NCBI GenBank assembly: GCA_016870995.1
Contig: VFZU01000004.1
Span: forward strand, 1 to 64,000
Direction: 5' to 3'
Length of the DNA stretch: 64,000 nt
DNA from: Acidobacteriota bacterium
GTDB taxonomy: Bacteria; Acidobacteriota; Terriglobia; Bryobacterales; Bryobacteraceae
The position numbers were made by a program, and so were the translations under genes. The notes beneath the pieces were generated by a model. The model was given only the letters and a program-made list of their open reading frames with translations, had not been told where the DNA came from and did no database searches. Positions 15,703-61,457 of the stretch are shown piece by piece; the first letter of the stretch is position 1, and each line of letters begins with the position of its first letter.

Positions 15703-15800
15703 CTCCATCGGGGCGGGCCTGCTCCTTAGCAGTTCCGACCGTTTTATGAAGCTTTCCCGATTTGACTTGGCACTCTAAGCTTCGATATAACTCAGCCACC

Positions 15801-18800
15801 ATGCTTCATAAAACGAAAGCGGGGCTGCTCGCCCTATTGCTCGCCGCAATGTGTTTCGGACAAGACACGCGCGGAAAACTGCAAGGCATTGTGACAGACT
15901 CATCGGGCGCAGTCGTAGCAGGTGCGTCTGTCATCTTGACCAACGACGAAACCAACGTACAAAACCAGACGAAGACTTCCCCCAGCGGCCAGTATCTCTT
16001 CGACTTCGTAACGCCTGGTAACTACACAGTGCGCGTCGAACTGACCGGCTTCAAGAGCTTTATCCAGAAAAATATCCTGGTACAGGCGCGTGGCGACGTG
16101 ACGGTTAACGCTTCGCTTGCCATCGGTAATACCAACGAGCAGATCACCGTCGAGTCAGCACCCGTCAGTGTGGAATTCAACACATCGAGCATGGGCTTAA
16201 CGGTGAACACGAAGATGGCGAACAGCTTGCCGATCATTCACCGTAATCCATTCCTGTTGGTGAGCCTGAACCCGGCGACGGTCATCCGCTCGACAACTGA
16301 ACAGAGCCCATTCCATCACTGGGCGGCTTCGCAGTTTGATGTCGGCGGCAACACGAGCACGAAGAACGACATCATTCTCGATGGCGCTCCGTCGATGACC
16401 GCACAGAAATCCAGCTACACTCCGCCGATGGATGCAGTGCAGGAAGTGAACGTGCAGCAGAACGCCGTGGATGCTGAATTTGGTCACTCGGCGGGCGGTG
16501 TTCTGAGCGTCCAGATGAAGTCGGGGACGAACGCCTATCACGGTACGGCTTACTATCTAGGCCGTAACCCGGTATTGAATGCGCTGGCCGACCGTACGAC
16601 GGGGGCAAAAAATCTGACTCGCCAGCATACCTGGGGGGCGACCATGGGCAACCCGATTCGCAAGAACAAGATCTTTAACTTTGCGAGCTATGAGGGTTGG
16701 CGGACGATCGAGCCGCGTACGGCATTCAATACGCTGCCGACCGATGCGGAACGTACCGGCGACTTCTCGCGCAGCCTGAATACGGCCGGTGCACTGCGGA
16801 CGATTTTCGATCCTTACACAACGCAGGTGAGCGGCAACACAGTCACCCGGCAACCCTTTGCCGGAAATGTGATCCCGGCCAGCCGCATCGACCCGGTGGC
16901 GCGCACGATGATTGCCGATGTCTGGAAGCCGAACGGCGCGGGTACCGGCCCCACCGGAGTCAATAACTTTATCAGCGGCTTTGCAAATCGCTTCCGGTAC
17001 TGGAATTTTTCTGACCGTGTGGACTGGAACATCAGTGACAAGTTGAAGGTATTCGGGCGCTACAACCGCTTCAAGACCTACACGGCACAGGATGACTACA
17101 CGGGTTCTACCGCACAGCCGCCAGATGGATCAGAGCGCCACTCGACATCGTTCTCGGGTGACGCTGTGTACACGATCAACCCCACGACACTGATCAATGT
17201 CCGCGGCGCCTACAACGCGATCGTCGACAGCTTTGGCGTGCCTTCGGCCATATTGAAGGCTGACGATCTCAAGAGGTTTTGGGGTAACAACACGTGGTAT
17301 CAGCCTTACCTCGCGGAACTGCCTGATATCTACTATCCCGGCGTGACCGTGCAAGGCCCCTCGAACACCACGCTGGGACGTGGTGGCTACTGGTTCCAGG
17401 AGCCCTCTTCATGGAACATCGAAGCGAAGATGAGCAAGAACGTCGGTAAGCACTACCTGAAGGTCGGCGGCGAATTCCGGCGGGAATTAGTGGTTGCTTC
17501 GCGGCCGCGACCCATGAACTTTACGTTCTCGCGCGCAACGACGGCGAACACGTTCAATGCCCCCAACCTCAACCTGAGCGGAGATGCATGGGCATCGATG
17601 TTGTTGGGCGTGCTTGAAGGTAACTCTTCGATCGGGTCGATCCCGGTTCAACGGCCACAAGTGAACTACAACGGATTCTTCATCCAGGACGATTACAAGA
17701 TCACTTCAAAGCTGACCCTGAATCTGGGCTTGCGCTATGAATACTTCACTGGCATGCGCGACCCGCTCGGCCGTTTGAGCCGGTTTCTGGATCTGAACAA
17801 CCCGATCCCCGAGTTCCAAGGCGCGAACGCGCCCGTGATTCCGGCGGCGGCTGCCGCGCTACGGCAGGCGCCGCCCGTCTATAACGGCGCCTGGGTCTTC
17901 ACCGACGATAACAACCCGAACAGTTGGAATGCGCCGCGCACTCTGTTGATGCCTAGGCTCGGCTTGGCCTATGCGATCAACAACAAGACGGCGCTGCGCA
18001 TCGGTTGGGCACGCTATATCGTACCGGCACCGCTGACCGATGGCTTGAGCATTTTGGGCAGTGTGCCATATACAGGCTTCGATGCCACTTCGACCACGAT
18101 TGGCCTGATTCAGGGCATACCGCAGCAACAGTTGCAGAACCCCTTCCCGGGTGGACTGGTGCCCGTGCGCGGCAAGAGCTTCGGACGGTATACGGCGCTT
18201 GGCGATTCGGCGACTTGGTATCAACAGGATTTTTCGCCGGGCGTCAACGACCGTATCAACGTGAGCTTGCAGAGGCAATTGCCTGGCAAGATTCTCGCTG
18301 ATATTACGTTCTTCACGAACCTAGGGCGTAGCGCTCCTTATGCCTATGACCTGAACCAGGTGGACCCGAGGATCGGCTTTGCCGCCGGTAACGCCATCAA
18401 CCAGAGCGTGCCAAACCCGTTCTTCAATCGCTTACCACTCGAGCGGATGCCGGGTCAGTTGCGCACGCAGGCCAATGTGGCGGTATCGCAATTGCTGCGG
18501 CCCTACCCGCAGTATGGCTCGCTTGTCGAAACGTTGCGTGGAGGTTTCTCGAACCGTTACCGCAGCCTGCAGATGCAGTTCCAGCGGCCCTTTGCCAATG
18601 GCTTTAACTTTACGATCGGCTACAACTACAACCGGGAACAGAATGAAGAGTTCTACGATGTTGTGGACAACTTCTTAAACAAGCCCGCCTGGCAGCCGGC
18701 GACCAACGCCCGGCAACGCATTACCGGCGCGGCGATCTATGAGCTGCCATTCGGGCGCAAGCGTCAGTTTGCCAACCAGATGCACCCGCTGCTCGATGGA

Positions 18801-19223
18801 ATTTTGGGCGGCTGGTCGGTCAGCGGATTGATGTCGGCGAACACCGGCATCTTCATGCGACTGGGTAGCGTTGTGGTGGATAGCGACCCGACGTTGGCCA
18901 ACCCGACGCGGGATCGCTGGTTTGATACGAGCAAGGTTCGCATCCTGCCAGCATTTACGCGCCGGACGAACCCCGTGCAGTTCCCAGGTCTCGTAGGTCC
19001 CGGCTTCTTCAACATCGACACCACACTCGCGAAAGAGTTTGACATCGTCAAAGAGCGAGTGAAGTTTGAGTTGCGGGCCGAGAGCTACAACACCACCAAT
19101 CACTTTACGGGAACGGTAGCGCCGGTCATTGATCCGAACTCACCGAACTTCGGCCGCGTCTTCCAACAGCGGCCTGGAGTATTCGGTCGTCAGATTCAGT
19201 TCAGTGGTCGCATCGTTTTCTAG
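15801..19223 (+). CDS. Oar-like TonB-dependent receptor 2
   Basis: The 1140-residue receptor begins at ATG 15801 with a signal peptide (MLHKTKAGLLALLLAAMCFGQ). A carboxypeptidase-regulatory domain follows (GKLQGIVTDSSGAVVAGASV to about 110), then plug and barrel ending IQFSGRIVF with the C-terminal phenylalanine needed for barrel insertion. It sits 98 bases after receptor 1 but is only distantly similar to it, so this is not a recent duplication. Third positions are balanced for G and C here, unlike the C-rich third positions of receptor 1. Confidence 0.9.
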   Translation: MLHKTKAGLLALLLAAMCFGQDTRGKLQGIVTDSSGAVVAGASVILTNDETNVQNQTKTSPSGQYLFDFVTPGNYTVRVELTGFKSFIQKNILVQARGDVTVNASLAIGNTNEQITVESAPVSVEFNTSSMGLTVNTKMANSLPIIHRNPFLLVSLNPATVIRSTTEQSPFHHWAASQFDVGGNTSTKNDIILDGAPSMTAQKSSYTPPMDAVQEVNVQQNAVDAEFGHSAGGVLSVQMKSGTNAYHGTAYYLGRNPVLNALADRTTGAKNLTRQHTWGATMGNPIRKNKIFNFASYEGWRTIEPRTAFNTLPTDAERTGDFSRSLNTAGALRTIFDPYTTQVSGNTVTRQPFAGNVIPASRIDPVARTMIADVWKPNGAGTGPTGVNNFISGFANRFRYWNFSDRVDWNISDKLKVFGRYNRFKTYTAQDDYTGSTAQPPDGSERHSTSFSGDAVYTINPTTLINVRGAYNAIVDSFGVPSAILKADDLKRFWGNNTWYQPYLAELPDIYYPGVTVQGPSNTTLGRGGYWFQEPSSWNIEAKMSKNVGKHYLKVGGEFRRELVVASRPRPMNFTFSRATTANTFNAPNLNLSGDAWASMLLGVLEGNSSIGSIPVQRPQVNYNGFFIQDDYKITSKLTLNLGLRYEYFTGMRDPLGRLSRFLDLNNPIPEFQGANAPVIPAAAAALRQAPPVYNGAWVFTDDNNPNSWNAPRTLLMPRLGLAYAINNKTALRIGWARYIVPAPLTDGLSILGSVPYTGFDATSTTIGLIQGIPQQQLQNPFPGGLVPVRGKSFGRYTALGDSATWYQQDFSPGVNDRINVSLQRQLPGKILADITFFTNLGRSAPYAYDLNQVDPRIGFAAGNAINQSVPNPFFNRLPLERMPGQLRTQANVAVSQLLRPYPQYGSLVETLRGGFSNRYRSLQMQFQRPFANGFNFTIGYNYNREQNEEFYDVVDNFLNKPAWQPATNARQRITGAAIYELPFGRKRQFANQMHPLLDGILGGWSVSGLMSANTGIFMRLGSVVVDSDPTLANPTRDRWFDTSKVRILPAFTRRTNPVQFPGLVGPGFFNIDTTLAKEFDIVKERVKFELRAESYNTTNHFTGTVAPVIDPNSPNFGRVFQQRPGVFGRQIQFSGRIVF

Positions 19224-20070
19224 CCTGTTGATGGCCGCATGCCTCCTGGCGCAGCAGTATGTGGGCGCCGGGGCCTGCGGTCGTTGTCATAACAGCATTG
19301 CTTCCAGCCAGGAGAAGTCGGGCCATGCTCGCGCTCTGGCACCAGCCGATGCGCGGGCCGATTGGGAGTTCGGCTCGGGAACTCATGCCAAGACGTGGGT
19401 GAAGCAACTCGACGAGAAGCACTATCTGGAACTGCCGCAATCCTGGTTCCGGCAGACCAACCGGATGGGGCTAACGCCGGGACACACCACGCAAGATGGC
19501 GTGCGCTATCGCGTGTTTGACCCGGGTGCCCAAATCTTGCGCTGCTTTTCTTGCCATTCAACGGGCGGGCCTGCAGTGCGAGAAGGCGGCAAGATACATC
19601 CGCATGAAAACGGTGTGCGTTGTGAGAGTTGCCACGGGCCTGGGGCGGCGCACGTGAAGGCGGGCGGCGGCAAGTACAACATCGAAAACCCAGGACAGTA
19701 TCAGGCCACTGCAATCAACGAACAGTGTGGAAACTGCCACCGGCAACCGGGAGCCGATGCCCGTTGGGACGACCCTTGGAATGTGCGGCACCAGCCCGTG
19801 TATCTGGCTGAGAGTGCCTGCTTTCTGAAAAGCGGCGGGAAGCTCTCGTGCCTATCGTGTCACCAACCGCACCAGGCGCTGTCGCGAGATCGCGGCGCGT
19901 ATGCTGCCGTCTGTGCCAGCTGTCATGCGCAGGTACAGCATCGGGTCAAAGTAAGTGGGGATTGCATCGGGTGCCACATGCCAGCCGTGGCGGCGAGCCC
20001 CGATTTGAGCTTTACGAATCACTGGATCGGAATCTACTCAGCGGGGCCGAAGCTGCGTCCGCGGCAGTGA
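19204..20070 (+). CDS. Seven-heme c-type cytochrome
   Basis: Seven CxxCH motifs are visible in order: CGRCH, CFSCH, CESCH, CGNCH, CLSCH, CASCH and CIGCH. The arrangement (CESCHGPGAAHVKAGG, CLSCHQPHQA) is that of the cytochrome c554/NrfA-related multiheme group. The start is uncertain. GTG 19204 provides a hydrophobic leader (MVASFSSLLMAACLLAQQ) but overlaps the upstream receptor by 20 bases; ATG 19231 leaves almost no signal sequence although heme attachment requires export. The 3' end overlaps the convergent TPR gene by 33 bases. It is probably periplasmic and electron-transferring. Confidence 0.87.
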   Translation: MVASFSSLLMAACLLAQQYVGAGACGRCHNSIASSQEKSGHARALAPADARADWEFGSGTHAKTWVKQLDEKHYLELPQSWFRQTNRMGLTPGHTTQDGVRYRVFDPGAQILRCFSCHSTGGPAVREGGKIHPHENGVRCESCHGPGAAHVKAGGGKYNIENPGQYQATAINEQCGNCHRQPGADARWDDPWNVRHQPVYLAESACFLKSGGKLSCLSCHQPHQALSRDRGAYAAVCASCHAQVQHRVKVSGDCIGCHMPAVAASPDLSFTNHWIGIYSAGPKLRPRQ

Positions 20071-44759: not shown

Positions 44760-45005
44760 ATGCCCCGAGTTCGCTTCGCCCCGTCGCCCACGGGCGACCT
44801 TCACATAGGCTCCGCTCGCACCTTTATCTTCAATTGGCTGTGCGCACGTCGACGTAACGGCACGATGATTCTACCTATCGATGACACCGATGTGGAGCGC
44901 AATCAAAATGCCTCGCTGAACTCGATTTTTGATGGCCTCAACTGGCTTGGCCTGGGCTCCCGAGCTGCTCTGACGGAATCGCTCGAAAGGCTCAAGAGAG
45001 TATGA
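44760..45005 (+). pseudogene. gltX: Truncated 5' fragment of glutamyl-tRNA synthetase gene
   Basis: This 81-codon frame encodes only the first part of a glutamyl-tRNA synthetase catalytic domain. It keeps [17 protein letters not shown] (HIGH-type motif at 15-18) and IDDTDVERN, and ends at DGLNWLGLG plus an unrelated 15-residue tail. The full enzyme is about 470-500 residues, so the KMSKS loop and anticodon domains are absent. It lies 7 bases after rsmA and overlaps the carbamoyltransferase start as ATGA. It cannot charge tRNA alone. It may survive as a coupling leader or be a deletion remnant; a full gltX must exist elsewhere. Confidence 0.8.
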
Positions 45006-46564
45006 ATGTTATTGGACTTGGCGGACTTCTCGATGATGCCGCCTGTGCCCTGGCTGTTGACGGGGAAATTGTAGCGGCCGTCGAGCAAAAGAAAATTGCC
45101 CGCCGAACTCAGCCCGGCACGCTACCGACGGAGGCCATCGAGGCAACTCTTGAGATCGCCAAGCTGAGCGCAGCCGATGTCCACTGCGTTGCCATTTCGC
45201 GGCCATTGAGTGCATCGCCCGATAGTCTGCTCAGCCTGCGCGTAAAGCAGATCTTTCCGAATGCGCGGTTGCTGATCCTCGATCATCAGACGGCGCATGC
45301 GGCGAGTGCTTTTTACGCCTCGGGATTTAGTGAGGCCACAGTGCTGACGATTGACCGCGCCGGGGACTTGCGCTGCTCTTCTCGGTGGACGGCGAAAGAC
45401 GGCAAGTTGGAGCTGGAGCGCGAATCCTATTTTCCTGATTCGATTGGCGACCTCTACGGTCGAGTGACCGAGTTGCTTGGCTTTACCGCTCGTGCCGATG
45501 AACACAAAGTTCAATGGATGTCGGCTTCAGGCGAGCCCCGTTTCTTGTCGCTGTTTACGGACATTCTTGGCTACACGGCAGATTCCTGGCCTGCTCTCAA
45601 CCGTGAGTATTTTGATCGCGACCGGATGGGCGTGGGAGGATTTAGTGCGAAGTTCTATGCTGGTCTCGGCCTTGCGGATGGAGCCGCAACACCCGCGGCT
45701 TTGCAGCCCCACATCGCCACCAGCCTGCAGCGGGCCATTGAGCAATGCGTTCTAGCTATGGCCGGTAAAGGGACTCATCTGTGCCTGGCCGGTGGCGTCG
45801 CATTCAACGCAATCCTCATACAGGCACTCGAGGCTTCCAACCACTTTCAAGCAATTTACGTCCAGCCTGCCTCGGGCAACGCGGGTACTGCCATCGGCGC
45901 CGCCTACGCTGCAAGTGTGAAGCCCTGCCAGCCCATGCAATCTCTTGCGCTTGGCCCTGCCTACAGCGCTGAAGCCGTCAAAGAGGTGCTCGAGAATTGC
46001 AAGCTCAGCCCCAAGTTCCTCCTCACTACGGACGAGTTGATTCAAGCGGCCCTCACCGAACTTGGTGAGCATCGCATCATCGCCTGGTTTCAAGACCGTA
46101 TGGAATTCGGCCCGCGCGCCCTGGGCAACCGCAGCATTCTTGCTTCTCCGCTGGACCCCTACGCCACCGAGAATCTCAATAGCTTTATTAAGCGCCGCGA
46201 GACCTTTCGCAAGTTCGCAGCTTCGGTGCCTGCCGAGCATGCTGCCACATACTTCGATTGGGGCCCCAACGCCGTGAATCTCTCGAGCATCTCCACCGTT
46301 AAGCCCGAGTACCGCGAGCGATTTGCCCCGGCATTGCTGGGCGAAGACGGCATTCGCCTGCAGGTGGTTCACAAGCAGGACAATCCTCTGTTTCACCGAT
46401 TGCTGATCGCAGCAGGTGAACGTACCGGACTCCCTGTGCTGTACAACACAAGCTTCAATCTCTTTGGGGACGCACTGGTGTGCAGCCCAAGAGATGCGGT
46501 TCGCAGCTTCTATTCAAGCGGCATCGACGTGATGTTCGTGGGGCAGTTCCTACTTCGCAAATAG
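45002..46564 (+). CDS. NodU/CmcH-type carbamoyltransferase
   Basis: The 520-residue protein has the two-part architecture of O-carbamoyltransferases. The N-terminal Kae1-like domain has the iron-binding [12 protein letters not shown] (H95, H99) and [21 protein letters not shown] and [13 protein letters not shown] are the ATP-site motifs. A YrdC-like C-terminal part contains [15 protein letters not shown] and [22 protein letters not shown]. It is somewhat shorter than NodU. These enzymes move carbamoyl from carbamoyl phosphate via an adenylate onto a hydroxyl of a sugar or natural product. No acceptor pathway is visible nearby. The 3' end overlaps the convergent aminopeptidase gene by 15 bases. 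Confidence 0.9.
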
Positions 46565-48373
46565 GGCTTCGACGGCAGCCGCCGAGATGGGGTGGTAGTT
46601 GGCTTTGTTCTTCGCGAACAGGGCCTTTGCTTTCACCTTTCCTTCGGGCGTCTTCGCCATCTCGGCATAGAGTGGCTTGATGAACTTCTGCCGGCCGACG
46701 CGCGACAGAAAGTTCTCAAGCGCAGCCTGGGCCGGCGCATACTTGTTGCGCACCGAGAGCAGCAGCCAGGCGTCGAGTAGTTCGCTGTTCTTCGATTGCG
46801 TGAACTTGAATTCCTGATCGAGCTTGGTCATTTGGGCCACGGTCAGATCTTGAGGTAAGCCCCGCAGGAAGTGCAACCACTGTTGCGCAACCCATTCTTT
46901 GGTGTCGAGTGCTTCGCCTTTCTTCCAGCTGGCCAATTGATCGTCTACCACTTTCAATAGATAGGCGTCGATCTTCGGAGTGGAAGCCGGCAAGCCTGGT
47001 TGATAGATCCATTCCTTTACATTCAGCTTCAGCTCGGGCAGCTTCTCTTTCAGGTAGCTCTCAAACATCGCCGTTGTGATGCTGGTGAATGCAAACTTCT
47101 CAAAGTAACCGCGAATGAAGCCATCCCACTTTTCGCGGCCCACTTCTTCTTCGATCGCCCGCAGCATCAGCGCCCCTTTGACGTAAGGAACCAGCGTGAC
47201 GCCTTCTTCCGGGTCTCGCCCTTTGAGGTTCACAAACAAGTGCTGATCCTTGGGTTCAAGCTTCGCCATCTCGGCCTTTAATTCAGCAATCTCGATTGCG
47301 AATTCCATTTCGCTGCGCTGCTTGCCGTAGAGTTGCTCCTGGATGCGGCGTTCGACGTAAACCGTAAATCCTTCATTCAGCCAGAAATCGCTCCAGGTCG
47401 CATTCGTCACGAGGTTTCCACTCCAACTATGGGCCAGCTCATGGGAAATTAAAGAAACGAGGCTCTTGTCGCCGGCGAGAATCGTCGGAGTTGCAAATGT
47501 CAGGCGGGGGTTTTCCATGCCGCCGATTGGAAAGCTCGGCGGAAGCACGAGCACGTCATGGCGGTCCCAGCGATAGGTGCCATAGAGGCGTTCGGCTTCA
47601 GAGACCATCTGGTCGAGATCTTCGAACTCTTTGGCCGATGCATCGAGCATCGCCTTTTCGGTGTAGACACCAGTGCGAGCCCCGATCATGCGGAACTGCA
47701 GTTCTCCGACGGCCAAAGCGATCAGATAGGGCGGAATTGGCTGCGTCATGTCGAAGGAATAATCGCCACTCGGCACGGAAGTCCGCTGATCGTTGTTGGC
47801 ACTCATGAGGGCAAAGAAATTAGGCTGGGTATGGATGCGAGCTCGGTAGGTGATGCGAATGCCTGGAGAGTCCTGCAAGGGAATCCAGCTGCGCGTGTAA
47901 ATTGGCTGGCCTTGGGTGTAGAGATAAGGCGATTTCTTGCCTGCGGTTTGCGATGCCTCAAGCCACTGCAGTGCCACAGCAGAAGGGCTGGTGGCGTAAG
48001 TGATCTTGATGAACTTGGTCCCTTCCGGGAGGGTCACCTCAAGCGGGGCGCCGAGGATTTTGTCCGTTTGGCCAAGCGCGAATCGTGCACTATCGAATTT
48101 CTGCCCATCGGCAGAGGCTTCGACTTTGTCGATGTGAAGATCTTTGGTGTCGAGCACGATGCGGCCCTTGCCATCGATCTTGTGTACAACAGAACCTTCG
48201 AGGATTTTCTTTTCAAAGTCGACCTTAAGATCGAGTTCGCTATGCAACACCCTCGCCTCTGCTGGTTTGGCATAGGAATGAACGTCCTCGGCAAATGTCA
48301 CGTTTGTTTTCACCTCTTCGATCTTCGGCGCGCACCCAGCCAGCAGCAGCGCCACTCCAACAAGAAATCGCAT
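46550..48373 (-). CDS. M1-family aminopeptidase, leukotriene A4 hydrolase-like lipoprotein
   Basis: The 607-residue protein starts with a lipobox (LVGVALLLAGCAPK, Cys14), so it is probably anchored to a membrane. Exopeptidase motif GGMEN lies at 284-288 and the zinc site HELAH at 311-315 with the third ligand E334 in WLNEGFTVY. LVLPPSFPIGGMENPRLTF and the C-terminal armadillo-like helical region make it closest to LTA4H/aminopeptidase B. The length matches that branch (about 610). It removes N-terminal residues from peptides; epoxide hydrolase activity cannot be judged. Confidence 0.93.
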   Translation of the reverse strand: MRFLVGVALLLAGCAPKIEEVKTNVTFAEDVHSYAKPAEARVLHSELDLKVDFEKKILEGSVVHKIDGKGRIVLDTKDLHIDKVEASADGQKFDSARFALGQTDKILGAPLEVTLPEGTKFIKITYATSPSAVALQWLEASQTAGKKSPYLYTQGQPIYTRSWIPLQDSPGIRITYRARIHTQPNFFALMSANNDQRTSVPSGDYSFDMTQPIPPYLIALAVGELQFRMIGARTGVYTEKAMLDASAKEFEDLDQMVSEAERLYGTYRWDRHDVLVLPPSFPIGGMENPRLTFATPTILAGDKSLVSLISHELAHSWSGNLVTNATWSDFWLNEGFTVYVERRIQEQLYGKQRSEMEFAIEIAELKAEMAKLEPKDQHLFVNLKGRDPEEGVTLVPYVKGALMLRAIEEEVGREKWDGFIRGYFEKFAFTSITTAMFESYLKEKLPELKLNVKEWIYQPGLPASTPKIDAYLLKVVDDQLASWKKGEALDTKEWVAQQWLHFLRGLPQDLTVAQMTKLDQEFKFTQSKNSELLDAWLLLSVRNKYAPAQAALENFLSRVGRQKFIKPLYAEMAKTPEGKVKAKALFAKNKANYHPISAAAVEALFAK

Positions 48374-57617: not shown

Positions 57618-57633
57618 TTCCTAGTAACCGTTA

Positions 57634-57702
57634 ACTGAAGTAGCGAGCGCTCCCGGCGGCCAGGCAACCTGGTCTGGCCGCAAGGGAGCGTTCGTCTTCA
57701 GT
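57634..57702 (+). promoter_or_regulatory. Long three-tier hairpin between flagellin and glycosyltransferase genes
   Basis: Three nested stems are visible: ACTGAAG (57634-57640) with CTTCAGT (57696-57702); an 11-bp stem CGAGCGCTCCC (57644-57654) with GGGAGCGTTCG (57684-57694, one G-T pair); and GCGGCCAG (57656-57663) with CTGGCCGC (57674-57681) around a 10-base loop. No T-run follows. The AAAGGAG ribosome binding site of the next gene begins 4 bases downstream. It may be an intrinsic transcript stabiliser, a partial terminator or a regulated 5' leader. Confidence 0.75.
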
Positions 57703-57721: not shown

Positions 57722-59422
57722 ATGAACACCGCACAAATCGAAGCCAAGGGAGAGCGGCTCCTCCGCAGGCTCGAAACCAATCAAAAAGACGGAGCCCCTT
57801 ACGACGCTTTGGGAATCATCGCCTTGGACCACCAGTCCTCTGGTGAGGCGATTGAACTCTTCACAAAAGCGATCGAGCTCGATGGTCCCGTGCCGGCCTA
57901 CTGCGCCCATTTGGGCGAAGCATTTGCCCGGCTGGGAGACTATCGCAGCGCTTCGGCCTGCATTGGCCAGGCACTTGTCGGCGAACCCTCGAGTGCAGAC
58001 CTGCGCTGGGCTTATGCCAACTTGCTTCATCTGCAAGGCGAAAACGAAAGGGCGGCGCGCAACTACGAACTGCTGGTGGCGCAATCGCCACGCCATGCGG
58101 AAGCCTGGTTCAATCTTGGCGTCACGCGCGCCAGGCAGAATCGGCCATCAGAAGCACGAAAAGCCTATGAGCAAACTGTGACCATTAGTCCGACATACGC
58201 CGAAGCCTGGAACAACCTCGCGTTGCTTGAAGTTGCCGCAGGCAATCTCTCAGCGGCGGAATCCAGCTATCGGCGTGCGCTGCTGGTGAAGCCGGACTAT
58301 CGCGATGCACTTTACAACTTCGCGGTTTTGCTGCAGGAAGAAGAACGTCTGCAGGAAGCCGTGACGATTAATGAGCGTCTGGTTTCGATCGATCCTGGCT
58401 TTAGCGAGGCCCACAACAACCTCGGTAACTGCTACCTCAAGCTAAACCGATTGGCTGAGGCGCAGAACCAATATCTTGAAACGCTGGCAATCCATGCTTC
58501 GCATCGGGAAGCGCCGATGAACCTCGGGCTGGCTGCCTTGCTGATGGGAGATTTTTCCCGTGGCTGGGTCGGCTACGAACATCGACTGGCGCAGCGAGAA
58601 ATCGAGAAGTGGGATTGGAAGATCCCGCGATGGGACGGCAAACTGCGTCCGGGTGAGAACATCCTGGTTCACGCCGAACAGGGCTTTGGAGATTCCATCC
58701 ACTTTGCGCGTTATGTTCGACTTCTCGTTGAAGCCGAAATGAAGGTCCATCTATTCTGCCAGCCGGCGATTCAGCCGTTGCTCGCCTCGATTGATGGGCT
58801 GGAGCGTTGCGTGAGTGAGATTGAAGCCCTCGACCCGGTGGATTGGCAGGTTCCCTTTCCCAGCTTGCCCTACTGTTTCAAGACCCGACTCGAAACCATT
58901 CCGAATCAGGTTCCCTATCTCAAAGTGGATGAGGCACGAAGGGCAAACTGGAGCAAGCTCTATGCGGAGCTTCCCCAGACGGGCCGACGCGTCGGTCTGG
59001 TGTGGCAAGGCAATCCGAACCACCGCAATGATCGCAATCGATCCCTACCGCTGAGCGTGCTGGCACCCTTGTTGAATACGGCTGGATTCCAGTTTCTGAG
59101 TTTGCAGAAGGGTGGCGCGGGAACGCGTATACCGGAAGGTATTTTCGATTTGGCACCGTTGCTCGGCAACTTCGCCGAGACGGCGGCGGCTATCGAAGGC
59201 CTTGATCTCGTGATCTCGGTGGACACGGCCGTCGCGCACCTGGCTGGATCATTGGGCAAACCCGTGTGGACGTTGTTGCCCTATGCACCGGACTGGCGCT
59301 GGTTGTTGTATCGGGAAGACTCGCCTTGGTATCCATCGATGCGGCTGTTCCGTCAGCCGATCGCGGGAGATTGGTCGAGTGTGGTGAGAGAAGTGAAGCG
59401 CGCTCTGAATGAGCTTGCCTAA
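57722..59422 (+). CDS. TPR-repeat glycosyltransferase, probable flagellin-modifying enzyme
   Basis: The 566-residue protein has about seven TPR units in its first 280 residues (for example AEAWFNLGVTRARQNRPSEARKAYEQ, SEAHNNLGNCYLKLNRLAEAQNQYLE). After GDFSRGWVGYEHRL comes a GT9/OGT-like C-terminal domain with ILVHAEQGFGDSIHFARYVRLL, GRRVGLVWQGNPNHRNDRNRS and DLVISVDTAVAHLAGSLGKPVW. This TPR-plus-glycosyltransferase arrangement is that of FlbA-like and O-GlcNAc-transferase-like enzymes. The position after flagellin makes flagellin O-glycosylation the likely job. Confidence 0.82.
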   Translation: MNTAQIEAKGERLLRRLETNQKDGAPYDALGIIALDHQSSGEAIELFTKAIELDGPVPAYCAHLGEAFARLGDYRSASACIGQALVGEPSSADLRWAYANLLHLQGENERAARNYELLVAQSPRHAEAWFNLGVTRARQNRPSEARKAYEQTVTISPTYAEAWNNLALLEVAAGNLSAAESSYRRALLVKPDYRDALYNFAVLLQEEERLQEAVTINERLVSIDPGFSEAHNNLGNCYLKLNRLAEAQNQYLETLAIHASHREAPMNLGLAALLMGDFSRGWVGYEHRLAQREIEKWDWKIPRWDGKLRPGENILVHAEQGFGDSIHFARYVRLLVEAEMKVHLFCQPAIQPLLASIDGLERCVSEIEALDPVDWQVPFPSLPYCFKTRLETIPNQVPYLKVDEARRANWSKLYAELPQTGRRVGLVWQGNPNHRNDRNRSLPLSVLAPLLNTAGFQFLSLQKGGAGTRIPEGIFDLAPLLGNFAETAAAIEGLDLVISVDTAVAHLAGSLGKPVWTLLPYAPDWRWLLYREDSPWYPSMRLFRQPIAGDWSSVVREVKRALNELA

Positions 59423-59895
59423 GCAAGCCTGTTGAGGAGGGGCATATCTGTGGCAGCTGGTCCTGAAAATGGGCTCGGTCTGCCGCAGGTGTGTTTTGAG
59501 CGGAAAGCAGGGTAGAGTCGATTGCGGTGAGGCTGCCCCTTTCGCTGATCGCGGGAGAAAGATCCAGCTTGGTTCGAGTAGCGGAGTCCGCTCTCAATGA
59601 GCTTGCCCAGGTAAGTCGGTTGAGGAGGGGCTCATCTGCGGCTGTCAATGGTTATGTGGAATCTAGTTGGTGCAGGTGCGTTTTGAGGGAAGAGGGTAGA
59701 TTGCACTCGATGCGGCAGTTTCTTGAGTTCGTGGCGGGAGATAGAGCTAATTCCGTTAGAGAAGTGGTGCCTGCCTCGAATGCACGCGCCTAGGCGAGCC
59801 GGTTGAGGAGGGGCTCATCTGCAGCTGCCGGCACTGAAAAGGACTTTAGCTGTTGGAGGTGCGCTTTGAGGGATCGCAGCGCGGATTGGATCTCG
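59339..59895. repeat. Three tandem ~185-bp copies of a convergent gene-end junction
   Basis: Diverged direct repeats begin at 59339, 59527 and 59710. Each starts with about 28 codons resembling the end of the glycosyltransferase (RQPIAGDWSSVVREVKRALNELA; SLIAGERSSLVRVAESALNELA; EFVAGDRANSVREVVPASNARA). Each continues into sequence that, on the minus strand, encodes the end of the small gene beyond fliD (AADEPLLNRLA). GGTTGAGGAGGGGCTCATCTG is shared almost exactly by copies 2 and 3. Copy 1 contains the functional stop of the plus-strand gene and copy 3 that of the minus-strand gene; copy 2 is remnant for both. Confidence 0.85.
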
Positions 59896-60101
59896 GCGCG
59901 CTCCTGCTCGGCAGCTACGCGAAGCTGAGCCGTGCGTGCTAAAGCCTGGTTCAATAACGGCAAGTGTTGTGCAGCCGCTTCGGGATCCGCCAAACAGGCA
60001 GCAGCAATGGCGGCGATGGCTTGTTCGCGTGCGGAAAGGTAGTCGTGGGTTGGGTTGCGGTCGAGCTCTGAGAGCTCGTCAAGCAGCGATGCGAGGGTCA
60101 A
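59790..60101 (-). CDS. Small helical flagellar protein, FliT/FliS position
   Basis: The 103-residue, almost wholly helical protein begins at TTG 60101 immediately after the fliD stop and is therefore co-translated with it. In other bacteria the gene after fliD is fliS or fliT, export chaperones for flagellin and FliD. The sequence (SAREQAIAAIAAACLADPEAAAQHLPLLNQAL, then a long coiled segment) looks more like a FliT-type or FlgN-type chaperone than FliS, but similarity is too weak to name it. Its 3' end is inside repeat copy 3. Confidence 0.6.
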   Translation of the reverse strand: MTLASLLDELSELDRNPTHDYLSAREQAIAAIAAACLADPEAAAQHLPLLNQALARTAQLRVAAEQERAEIQSALRSLKAHLQQLKSFSVPAAADEPLLNRLA

Positions 60102-61457
60102 CTAGCCTTCTCGCTTGCCGTAGAGCACCAGATTCAAGCTGTCCACAGAAGCCTTGATGATGCCCTGCTGGGATTCAAAGCGCGACAACAAAACGTCAGC
60201 AGCCTGAAGCTTTGCCTGATAGTTTTGCTGAATTACATTGATTCGATCTTCGAGACTGGCGACTTGATCATCGATCCTGCGATCGGACTTGTCATATTGG
60301 GCAAGCTGGACGCCGGCCAGGCCGGTGACGTCCTCACTGAAGGTACTCACTTGCCGCTCAAGCGACCCCAAACCTGTTTCGGCCTTGAAAAAATCGAACG
60401 CATCGCGAAGATTTTGCTCCCCGAGAGAGTTGAACACGCCGCTATCGAAGCTGATGGTGCCGCTCGATGAAAAGGTGACGCCAAGGTCGGACCAGTTCTT
60501 GATGGTGCCTTGCCCGATGCTGAAGCTCGAAGATTTTCGCAGGATGTCCTGCGCCTCGCGCACCAGATAGTCGCCGCTTAGCAAACCAGCTGTCTTGCCC
60601 ACCTGGCCATTCACTTTGTCCTGAAGCGCGTTATAGGCATCGATGAAGCCACTGATCGCGCCCGATAGTTTTGAGCGGTCGCTCGAGAGCCCAATGGTAA
60701 GCGTCTCGCCGCTCGTTGTGGTTTGCTTGATCGAGAAGGTGACACCAGGCACCAGGTTGTTGACTTGATTGGATTTGCGACTGACCGATACACCGTTCAG
60801 CTTGAACTGCAGGTCACTGCCCTGATTTGTGGCCGTGAGCAGGTCTGTATTGGCTCCGTTGGGGTCCTCTTTGAGGGTGAGTGCGTTGGCTCCCGCACCG
60901 TTGGCCGTGATACTCAGGTAGTTCGTGTTCGCGTCAACGGTGAGAATGGAAGCCGTCACTCCTACCCCGAGAGTATTGATCTTGTCCCGAAGCCCGAGAA
61001 GGTTGTTCTGCCCGCTCGCAAGACTGATGTCGTAACCGGTGGTGCCTACCTTGAGGCGCACATTGCCGCTCGCCGAAACTTGTGTGGTTGCGGAATTCGC
61101 GAAAGAGCTGACTGAAGTTTCTGAAGCAGCTTTGGCCGTCGAGATCACATCCGTAATGTTGTAGTTGGTGAGGATGTCTGTGTTCACCGAGTCGATCGTG
61201 AGCTTGGATGTGTTGGAGCTGGATGCCGACACTGCCCGGTTGCCCGCAATGTCCTTGAGATTCTGCAGCCGGCTACCAAAAAGCTTCATGCTGCTGTTGA
61301 GCTCAGAGGTGAGTTGGCGCTTGGTGGCGATATCGGCCTGCTCGTTCTTTAACTGTGTGAGAGGAAAAGAGGCAATGGTAACGACGCGCTTCAGGATCGT
61401 CTGAAAGTCGGCCGAATAACTGCTGACTCCCGAAAATGTTAAGGGTGTAAGGCTCAT
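60102..61457 (-). CDS. fliD: Flagellar filament cap protein FliD (HAP2)
   Basis: The 451-residue protein has the FliD N-terminal domain (TFSGVSSYSADFQTILKRVVTIASFPLTQLKNEQADIATKRQ) and a hook-IN-like module near LRDKINTLGVGVTASILTVD. The C-terminal domain ends with YDKSDRRIDDQVASLEDRINVIQQNYQAKLQAADVLLSRFESQQ. FliD forms the cap under which flagellin polymerises. GGAG precedes the ATG by 7 bases. It is transcribed toward the flagellin cluster from a sigma-28-like site. Confidence 0.94.
   Translation of the reverse strand: MSLTPLTFSGVSSYSADFQTILKRVVTIASFPLTQLKNEQADIATKRQLTSELNSSMKLFGSRLQNLKDIAGNRAVSASSSNTSKLTIDSVNTDILTNYNITDVISTAKAASETSVSSFANSATTQVSASGNVRLKVGTTGYDISLASGQNNLLGLRDKINTLGVGVTASILTVDANTNYLSITANGAGANALTLKEDPNGANTDLLTATNQGSDLQFKLNGVSVSRKSNQVNNLVPGVTFSIKQTTTSGETLTIGLSSDRSKLSGAISGFIDAYNALQDKVNGQVGKTAGLLSGDYLVREAQDILRKSSSFSIGQGTIKNWSDLGVTFSSSGTISFDSGVFNSLGEQNLRDAFDFFKAETGLGSLERQVSTFSEDVTGLAGVQLAQYDKSDRRIDDQVASLEDRINVIQQNYQAKLQAADVLLSRFESQQGIIKASVDSLNLVLYGKREG

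Follow-up and report, generated by a model that had tools for sequence, protein, structure and literature searches.

A convergent overlap makes one segment of DNA encode the end of a protein and the end of a transcript together. In Escherichia coli, according to the available part of one report (PMC2174442), there are 58 convergent overlaps, of which 19 have a Rho-independent terminator used by one of the two genes and 2 have one used by both; because the coding sequences overlap, such terminators must be situated within the coding sequence of the partner. A convergent overlap of 4 nt can be CTAA, TTAA, CTAG, or TTAG, according to the same part of that report. The formation of overlaps by moving stop codons is discussed in the accessible portion of another paper (PMC4161906). 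In Rickettsia prowazekii, as described in the available part of a third (PMC3027695), convergent genes without a sharp terminator give antisense transcripts, and most transcripts lacked a specific stop.

The locus described here is the meeting point of two convergent genes in a 64-kb stretch of DNA (called the window throughout) from an Acidobacteriota genome of 5.7 Mb, G000. Its Bryobacter-type genus comprises eight genomes, seven of which are congeners of G000. One congener, G001, has a bifunctional junction of the kind already described for E. coli overlaps with an embedded terminator; in contrast, the window and five congeners hold the two roles on separate copies, and duplication is unmentioned in the accessible part of PMC2174442. 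As in the R. prowazekii pairs, read-through at this convergent meeting point would make antisense RNA; unlike those pairs, as far as the available text of PMC3027695 describes them, the window keeps a strong hairpin behind one of its genes.

Embedded terminators in convergent partners are already known; as far as our searches of open-access text show, their uncoupling through junction duplication is the new element. Among the papers retrieved by these searches, no title or opening abstract gave an account of the separation of a convergent overlap through junction duplication, and to that extent the undoing of such an overlap had yet to be followed in a natural example. In duplication-degeneration-complementation (subfunctionalization), each of two duplicates loses a different one of two functions. 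The junction resembles that process in this pattern of complementary loss, but differs in that what is copied is the meeting point of two genes, and the functions divided are a C-terminal coding end on one strand and an RNA 3′ element on the opposite strand. Because a single genus holds bifunctional, split, and decayed states, the conflict between the two functions and its release become testable.

The features of the locus are given in Table 1. The flagellin encoded upstream of the glycosyltransferase gene (GT) has 1119 aa, and the coding sequences of GT and of its convergent partner are 367 nt apart in the window. Like the flagellar chaperone FliT, the partner is a small helical protein encoded after fliD; however, its best Pfam match, to FliT (PF05400), reached 18.9 bits, under the gathering cut-off of 29.5, and this match was found in one of eight homologues. 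The structure model of the partner was confident and helical (mean pLDDT 88.1) except for the last ~13 residues (pLDDT 50–53); a structural search with this model gave a best match of Z 6.0, and FliT was absent among the best 50 matches listed. The C-terminus LLNRLA, or a close variant, was kept throughout the eight genomes although its codons vary, and it is therefore conserved as protein. To judge from the model, the last ~13 residues, with their low pLDDT, could tolerate a dual role.

Table 1 Features of the junction locus and its surroundings (positions in the window)
Feature	Position	Strand	Description
Hairpin after flagellin gene	57630–57695	+	z −8.2, MFE −46.0; strongest of 45 window gene ends
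GT (TPR / glycosyltransferase-family-9)	57722–59422	+	ORF; Pfam TPR and Glyco_transf_9 over cut-off; downstream of flagellin
Copy 1	59336–59520 (end approximate)	+	3′-terminal 87 nt of GT, two overlapping stops, partner 3′-end remnant with intact hairpin
CTAA in copy 1	59419–59422		GT stop TAA (+) overlaps remnant partner stop TAG (−)
Hairpin element	59434–59500	+	11 nt past GT stop; 18-bp stem running into U-tract; putative GT mRNA 3′-end element
Copy 2	59524–59703		Double remnant; both stops gone, hairpin decayed
Copy 3	59707–59880		Dead GT tail, CTAG double stop, real 3′ end of partner, decayed hairpin
Partner gene after fliD	59790–60101	−	ORF, 103 aa, TTG start; homologues in congeners; weakly FliT-like
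fliD	60102–61457	−	Pfam FliD_N and FliD_C over cut-off

A first-pass annotation of the sequence had proposed that this junction was triplicated in tandem. The proposal was borne out, and the place and the offsets that it gave for the copies were correct. Three copies in direct orientation, each of ~180 nt and ~70% identical, occupy 59336–59880. The repeat search placed a 134-nt unit at 59336, 59524, and 59707 (spacings of 188 and 183 nt) and a 33-nt continuation at 59471, 59658, and 59841. Local alignments scored 101 for copies 1 and 2 (133 of 184 columns identical), 79 for copies 2 and 3 (103 of 144), and 83 for copies 1 and 3 (126 of 178), compared with a maximum of 31–34 in 1000 dinucleotide-preserving shuffles per pair. 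An ungapped self-scan of the whole window (80-nt windows, at least 70% identity, offsets of 40–400) flagged the array region only, and a search of the genome with 59500–59900 gave two matches at E ≤ 0.001, both in the array locus. Tandem Repeats Finder at score 30 missed the array, as expected from its documentation because the copies are so diverged. An assembly artefact was ruled out, since copies ~30% diverged carry differences that neither sequencing error nor collapse could produce. With that divergence, it is doubtful that the triplication was recent, as had been supposed, and we regard it as old.

The same annotation held that copies 1 and 3 supply the actual stops and that copy 2 is a double remnant, and this reading stands. 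The minus frame at the CTAA of copy 1 ends in PLLNRLA followed by a stop. In copy 3, the CTAG at 59790–59793 supplies the minus-strand stop of the partner, with a plus-strand stop overlapping it. Copy 2 has CCAG at the corresponding place (59607–59610), and thus both stops have been lost. Relative to copy 1, differences in the GT remnants were spread over the three codon positions without bias (11, 7, and 7 in copy 2; 8, 10, and 12 in copy 3); those between copy 1 and five intact GT orthologues were biased to third positions (e.g., 9, 1, and 20). From the absence of codon-position bias we conclude that the GT tail is dead coding sequence in copy 2 and in copy 3. Two open reading frames were considered as genes and rejected: one spanning copies 2 and 3 (59527–59793, 88 aa), which had no Pfam match and no codon bias in its GT-tail part, and one on the minus strand (59190–59648), which had no Pfam match.

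The hairpin of copy 1 had an MFE of −36.4 kcal/mol and a z score of −6.1, and none of 500 shuffles was as stable. The GT hairpin (z −7.6) ranked second in strength among the 45 called gene ends of the window. With the covariance model R1, which was built from copy 1 and five other sequences, the copy 1 hairpin scored 74.0 bits; the homologous elements of copy 2 (59622–59687) and copy 3 (59805–59870) scored 30.2 and 40.7 bits and had z scores of 0.0 and −0.3, respectively. Bidirectional termination, which had been suggested for the junction, found no support: the copy 1 hairpin was strong on the GT strand alone, the opposite strand reaching −15.1 kcal/mol. The GT strand was the more stable one in all seven GT-proximal hairpins, with the widest difference in the window, and this strand bias of folding speaks for an RNA on that strand. 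The U-tract GUGUGUUUU follows the stem but is able to pair with an upstream GGGG. A simple terminator scan left the hairpin unflagged and found 7 sites in the region, compared with 10.8 in shuffles. Rfam gave no match at E ≤ 1 in 58500–60500, and a known RNA family was therefore rejected. The place, strand bias, and strength of the element suggest that it terminates or stabilizes the GT mRNA.

A hairpin directly behind GT was present in seven of the eight genomes (window, G001, G003, G005, G007, G002, and G004), with z scores of −3.5 to −6.6 and 0 of 500 dinucleotide shuffles as stable in each. The seven partner coding ends that are separated from GT (window copy 3, G003, G005, G007, G002, G004, and G006) had no hairpin, their z scores ranging from −1.3 to +0.9 under the same kind of shuffle. 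The distance from the GT stop to the hairpin was 11 nt in the window, G001, and G003, 26 nt in G005, G007, and G002, and 16 nt in G004. This spacing deserves notice, since the ribosome that translates a gene can repress a terminator placed immediately after it, as stated in the available part of PMC4824070. A GGAGGG in the 5′ arm of the stem (59434–59445 and homologous places) was invariant in all seven GT-proximal elements, even where noncoding; it resembles a Shine-Dalgarno sequence, and a start codon at the usual distance was absent.

A single plain junction had been expected in relatives, but was seen in only one of the seven congeners. In that genome, G001, GT and the partner overlap by 4 nt (CTAG), and the hairpin lies within the partner's coding end. 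In G003, G005, G007, and G002, 85–169 nt lie between the stops, and a GT-proximal segment resembling the partner 3′ end is followed by the real end. In G004 the fliD block is ~20 kb away (L067, L068) and turned relative to GT, and a similar hairpin segment is found behind the GT stop. In G006 an insert of ~1 kb lies between GT and the partner (L071). By eye this insert looks like a broken transposase gene; a Pfam scan of three pieces of it was empty. The G005 locus (L064) has 19-nt tandem units, GCAAGCCAGGCGATCTACT and decayed forms of it, at the partner's stop, ~100–190 nt past the GT stop; two neighboring units are identical at 19 of 19 positions.

Self-comparison of 14 junctions gave a score of 101 for the window, against a shuffle maximum of 27, and scores of 18–38 for the other 13. 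Beyond the window, a junction exceeded its own shuffle maximum solely in G005 (38 vs. 24), G003 (28 vs. 25), and G001 (28 vs. 27), the G001 score reflecting a 14-nt match within the partner gene; the relatives compared thus lack the tandem array. Copies 1–3 formed one group (support 95/95) in the GT-tail tree, and copies 2 and 3 were sisters within it (95/89). The triplication therefore took place within the window lineage, once this had separated from the sampled congeners. When the array DNA was searched against 61 genomes, the matches at E < 0.001 outside the window were GT-tail matches in G006, G004, and G007 alone; chance-level matches at E ≤ 1 occurred in 52 of the 61. A DNA tree of rpoB-rpoC had the form (G000,G004), ((G006,G001),(G003,(G002,G005))), with a midpoint root only; it covered seven genomes, G007 having no rpoB match, and the column fill was 12% for G001 and 34% for G005.

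Synonymous recoding was done with each genome's own GT codon usage, except for the G004 coding end, for which that of G003 was used. The hairpin inside the partner coding end of G001 exceeds what the protein requires: only 3 of 500 recodings over 30 codons, and 13 of 500 over 25 codons, were as stable. For the GT-proximal segments of G003 and window copy 1, 8–15 of 500 recodings were as stable; for the coding ends the number was 51–500 of 500. Separated coding ends gave z scores of up to +4.3 under recoding. Selection against structure in these ends was considered and rejected, since the same ends were near zero under dinucleotide shuffles and base-composition skew suffices as an explanation.

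Convergent overlap of the two genes was also found in other genera, in G009 (24 nt), G020 (13 nt), and G183 (29 nt). Recodings at least as stable as these overlapping ends numbered 28, 186, and 469 of 500, respectively. Because the overlapping ends outside the genus lack a clear hairpin, the embedded one does not go back to the ancestor of the family. Among 19 loci, of which G158 and G160 were left out of the overlap count and G006 was read by eye, four had sure overlaps, five had 1.1–1.5 kb between GT and the partner (G173, G141, G143, G244, and G118), and seven had gaps of 62–367 nt (e.g., 275 nt in G159 and 62 nt in G073).

The reading that we favor, and consider somewhat better than an even bet, is that the junction was duplicated and that the hairpin and the coding end were then divided between the copies. 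In the ancestor, GT and the partner would have been convergent and overlapping at their stops, and the last ~25 codons of the partner, read on the GT strand, would have doubled as the 3′-end hairpin of the GT mRNA, acting as a terminator or stabilizer. Tandem duplication of the junction would then have provided a separate copy for each function. The copy next to GT would have retained the hairpin and been freed of its coding duty, its frame decayed or irrelevant; the distal copy would have lost the hairpin but retained the C-terminus of the partner; and the middle copy of the window would have lost both functions. The window displays all of these outcomes: copy 1 has the GT stop and the hairpin, copy 2 has neither function, and copy 3 has the partner coding end. 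The split between hairpin and coding end is seen in six genomes (window, G003, G005, G007, G002, and G004), which are not independent, G005, G007, and G002 being one group. We infer that the single-junction state is ancestral and that selection, not drift, kept the hairpin; the single state occurs in one of eight genomes, G001, where it could be the collapse of an older duplication.

Descent of a GT-proximal segment from coding sequence is clearest in G003, which has two partner 3′ ends, the GT-adjacent one with a hairpin and the real one without. On the partner strand, the GT-proximal segment of G003 reads ETNLRQLSLFAETAAADASLLIRLA followed by a stop. Against a profile of separated partner ends it scored 60 over 25 residues, a value reached by none of 17,144 control windows (maximum 11.8), and we conclude that it descends from a partner 3′ end. 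For the segments of G005, G007, G002, and G004, the best 12-mer was reached by 55–570 of 22,566 controls; this protein-level signal is weak, and descent in these genomes therefore rests on similarity of the hairpin sequence. In annotation it should be borne in mind that a conserved "spacer" behind such genes can have once been a coding end and have been retained for its RNA element.

A search of 237 family genomes with R1 gave six matches above 70 bits, which were the six sequences from which the model was built, each directly behind GT; the next matches were window copies 3 and 2. Outside the GT/partner junction, nothing exceeded 26 bits in the 237 genomes (strict filters, 22 candidates scored per genome). 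A dispersed palindromic (REP-like) repeat was rejected on the same ground, no many-copy pattern being found. The held-out G004 element was matched at the homologous place with 19.5 bits and an E value of 0.0024 in 177 kb of junction loci; in the genome-wide family search its E value was 0.068, below many chance-level matches, and 84 of the 237 genomes had some match at E ≤ 1. Covariation was modest, with 3 of 18 pairs changed on both sides and the observed values reached by 27–100 of 500 shuffles. Pairing fell from 96% to 40–54% when the pairing was slid by 1–3 columns.

Four other explanations were weighed against a division of labor between duplicated junctions. The array could be a neutral relic, in which replication slippage copied a tolerant junction, the copies are decaying, and copy 1 inherited a hairpin without a role. 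Both genes stay intact when a convergent junction is duplicated, the decay of copies 2 and 3 with their unbiased GT tails is as expected for a relic, and the locus is a restless one, as the 19-nt units of G005, the large insert of G006, and the relocation in G004 attest. However, the decay is one-sided, with the hairpin found in seven of seven GT-proximal places and in none of seven separated ends despite wide differences between the genomes, and we regard a neutral relic as unlikely. A palindrome that acts as DNA, as a cruciform or slippage hot spot, and that causes rearrangements without being conserved for RNA would also fit the variety of rearrangements seen at this single place within the genus. 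G-U pairs of the stem exist on one strand only, and the large difference in stability between the two strands of copy 1 likewise argues against a DNA-level role, which seems to us improbable. Reversal of the order of events, in which the hairpin was at first a plain terminator of GT and the partner gene extended into it afterwards in G001 and the window, would accord with the absence of a clear hairpin from overlapping ends of other genera; it is very improbable in view of the homology of the G003 segment, over 25 residues, to separated partner ends.

The remaining alternative differs in the number of duplications. It holds that one duplication preceded the diversification of the genus, that G001 collapsed to a single copy, and that in the lineage of the window the distal copy disappeared before the proximal one was triplicated. 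The GT-proximal segments do resemble G001 and window copy 1 more closely than they resemble the coding end in the same genome (77–78% vs. 66% identity in G005, and 71–76% vs. 66% in G003), and an 85-column tree parts the coding ends from the hairpin copies. However, the tree support (62/28) is negligible, and constraint on the hairpin of one copy together with drift of the other would give the same pattern. In addition, the duplicated units differ, being ~185 nt with a GT tail in the window and ~85 nt without one in G003, G005, G007, and G002. A single old duplication has some chance of being correct, though well short of an even one. The differing unit sizes favor at least two duplication events. 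That junction duplication is a recurrent escape from the conflict between coding and regulation in convergent overlaps, the roles having segregated at least twice in the genus in units of ~185 and 85 nt, is a tentative proposal to which we give slightly less than even weight.

Two further observations were made. In G002 (L070), FliD groups with its counterparts in G005 and G007, but GT branches outside those of the two genomes despite a resemblance to them in the final 50 residues; the G002 GT is perhaps a mosaic. The window also contains two more overlapping convergent pairs, at 15762–19223 / 19220–19714 (4 nt) and 45002–46564 / 46550–48373 (15 nt). Their partner coding ends hold fairly stable hairpins (minimum z scores of −2.8, −3.8, −3.4, and −3.8), and embedded hairpins may be common here.
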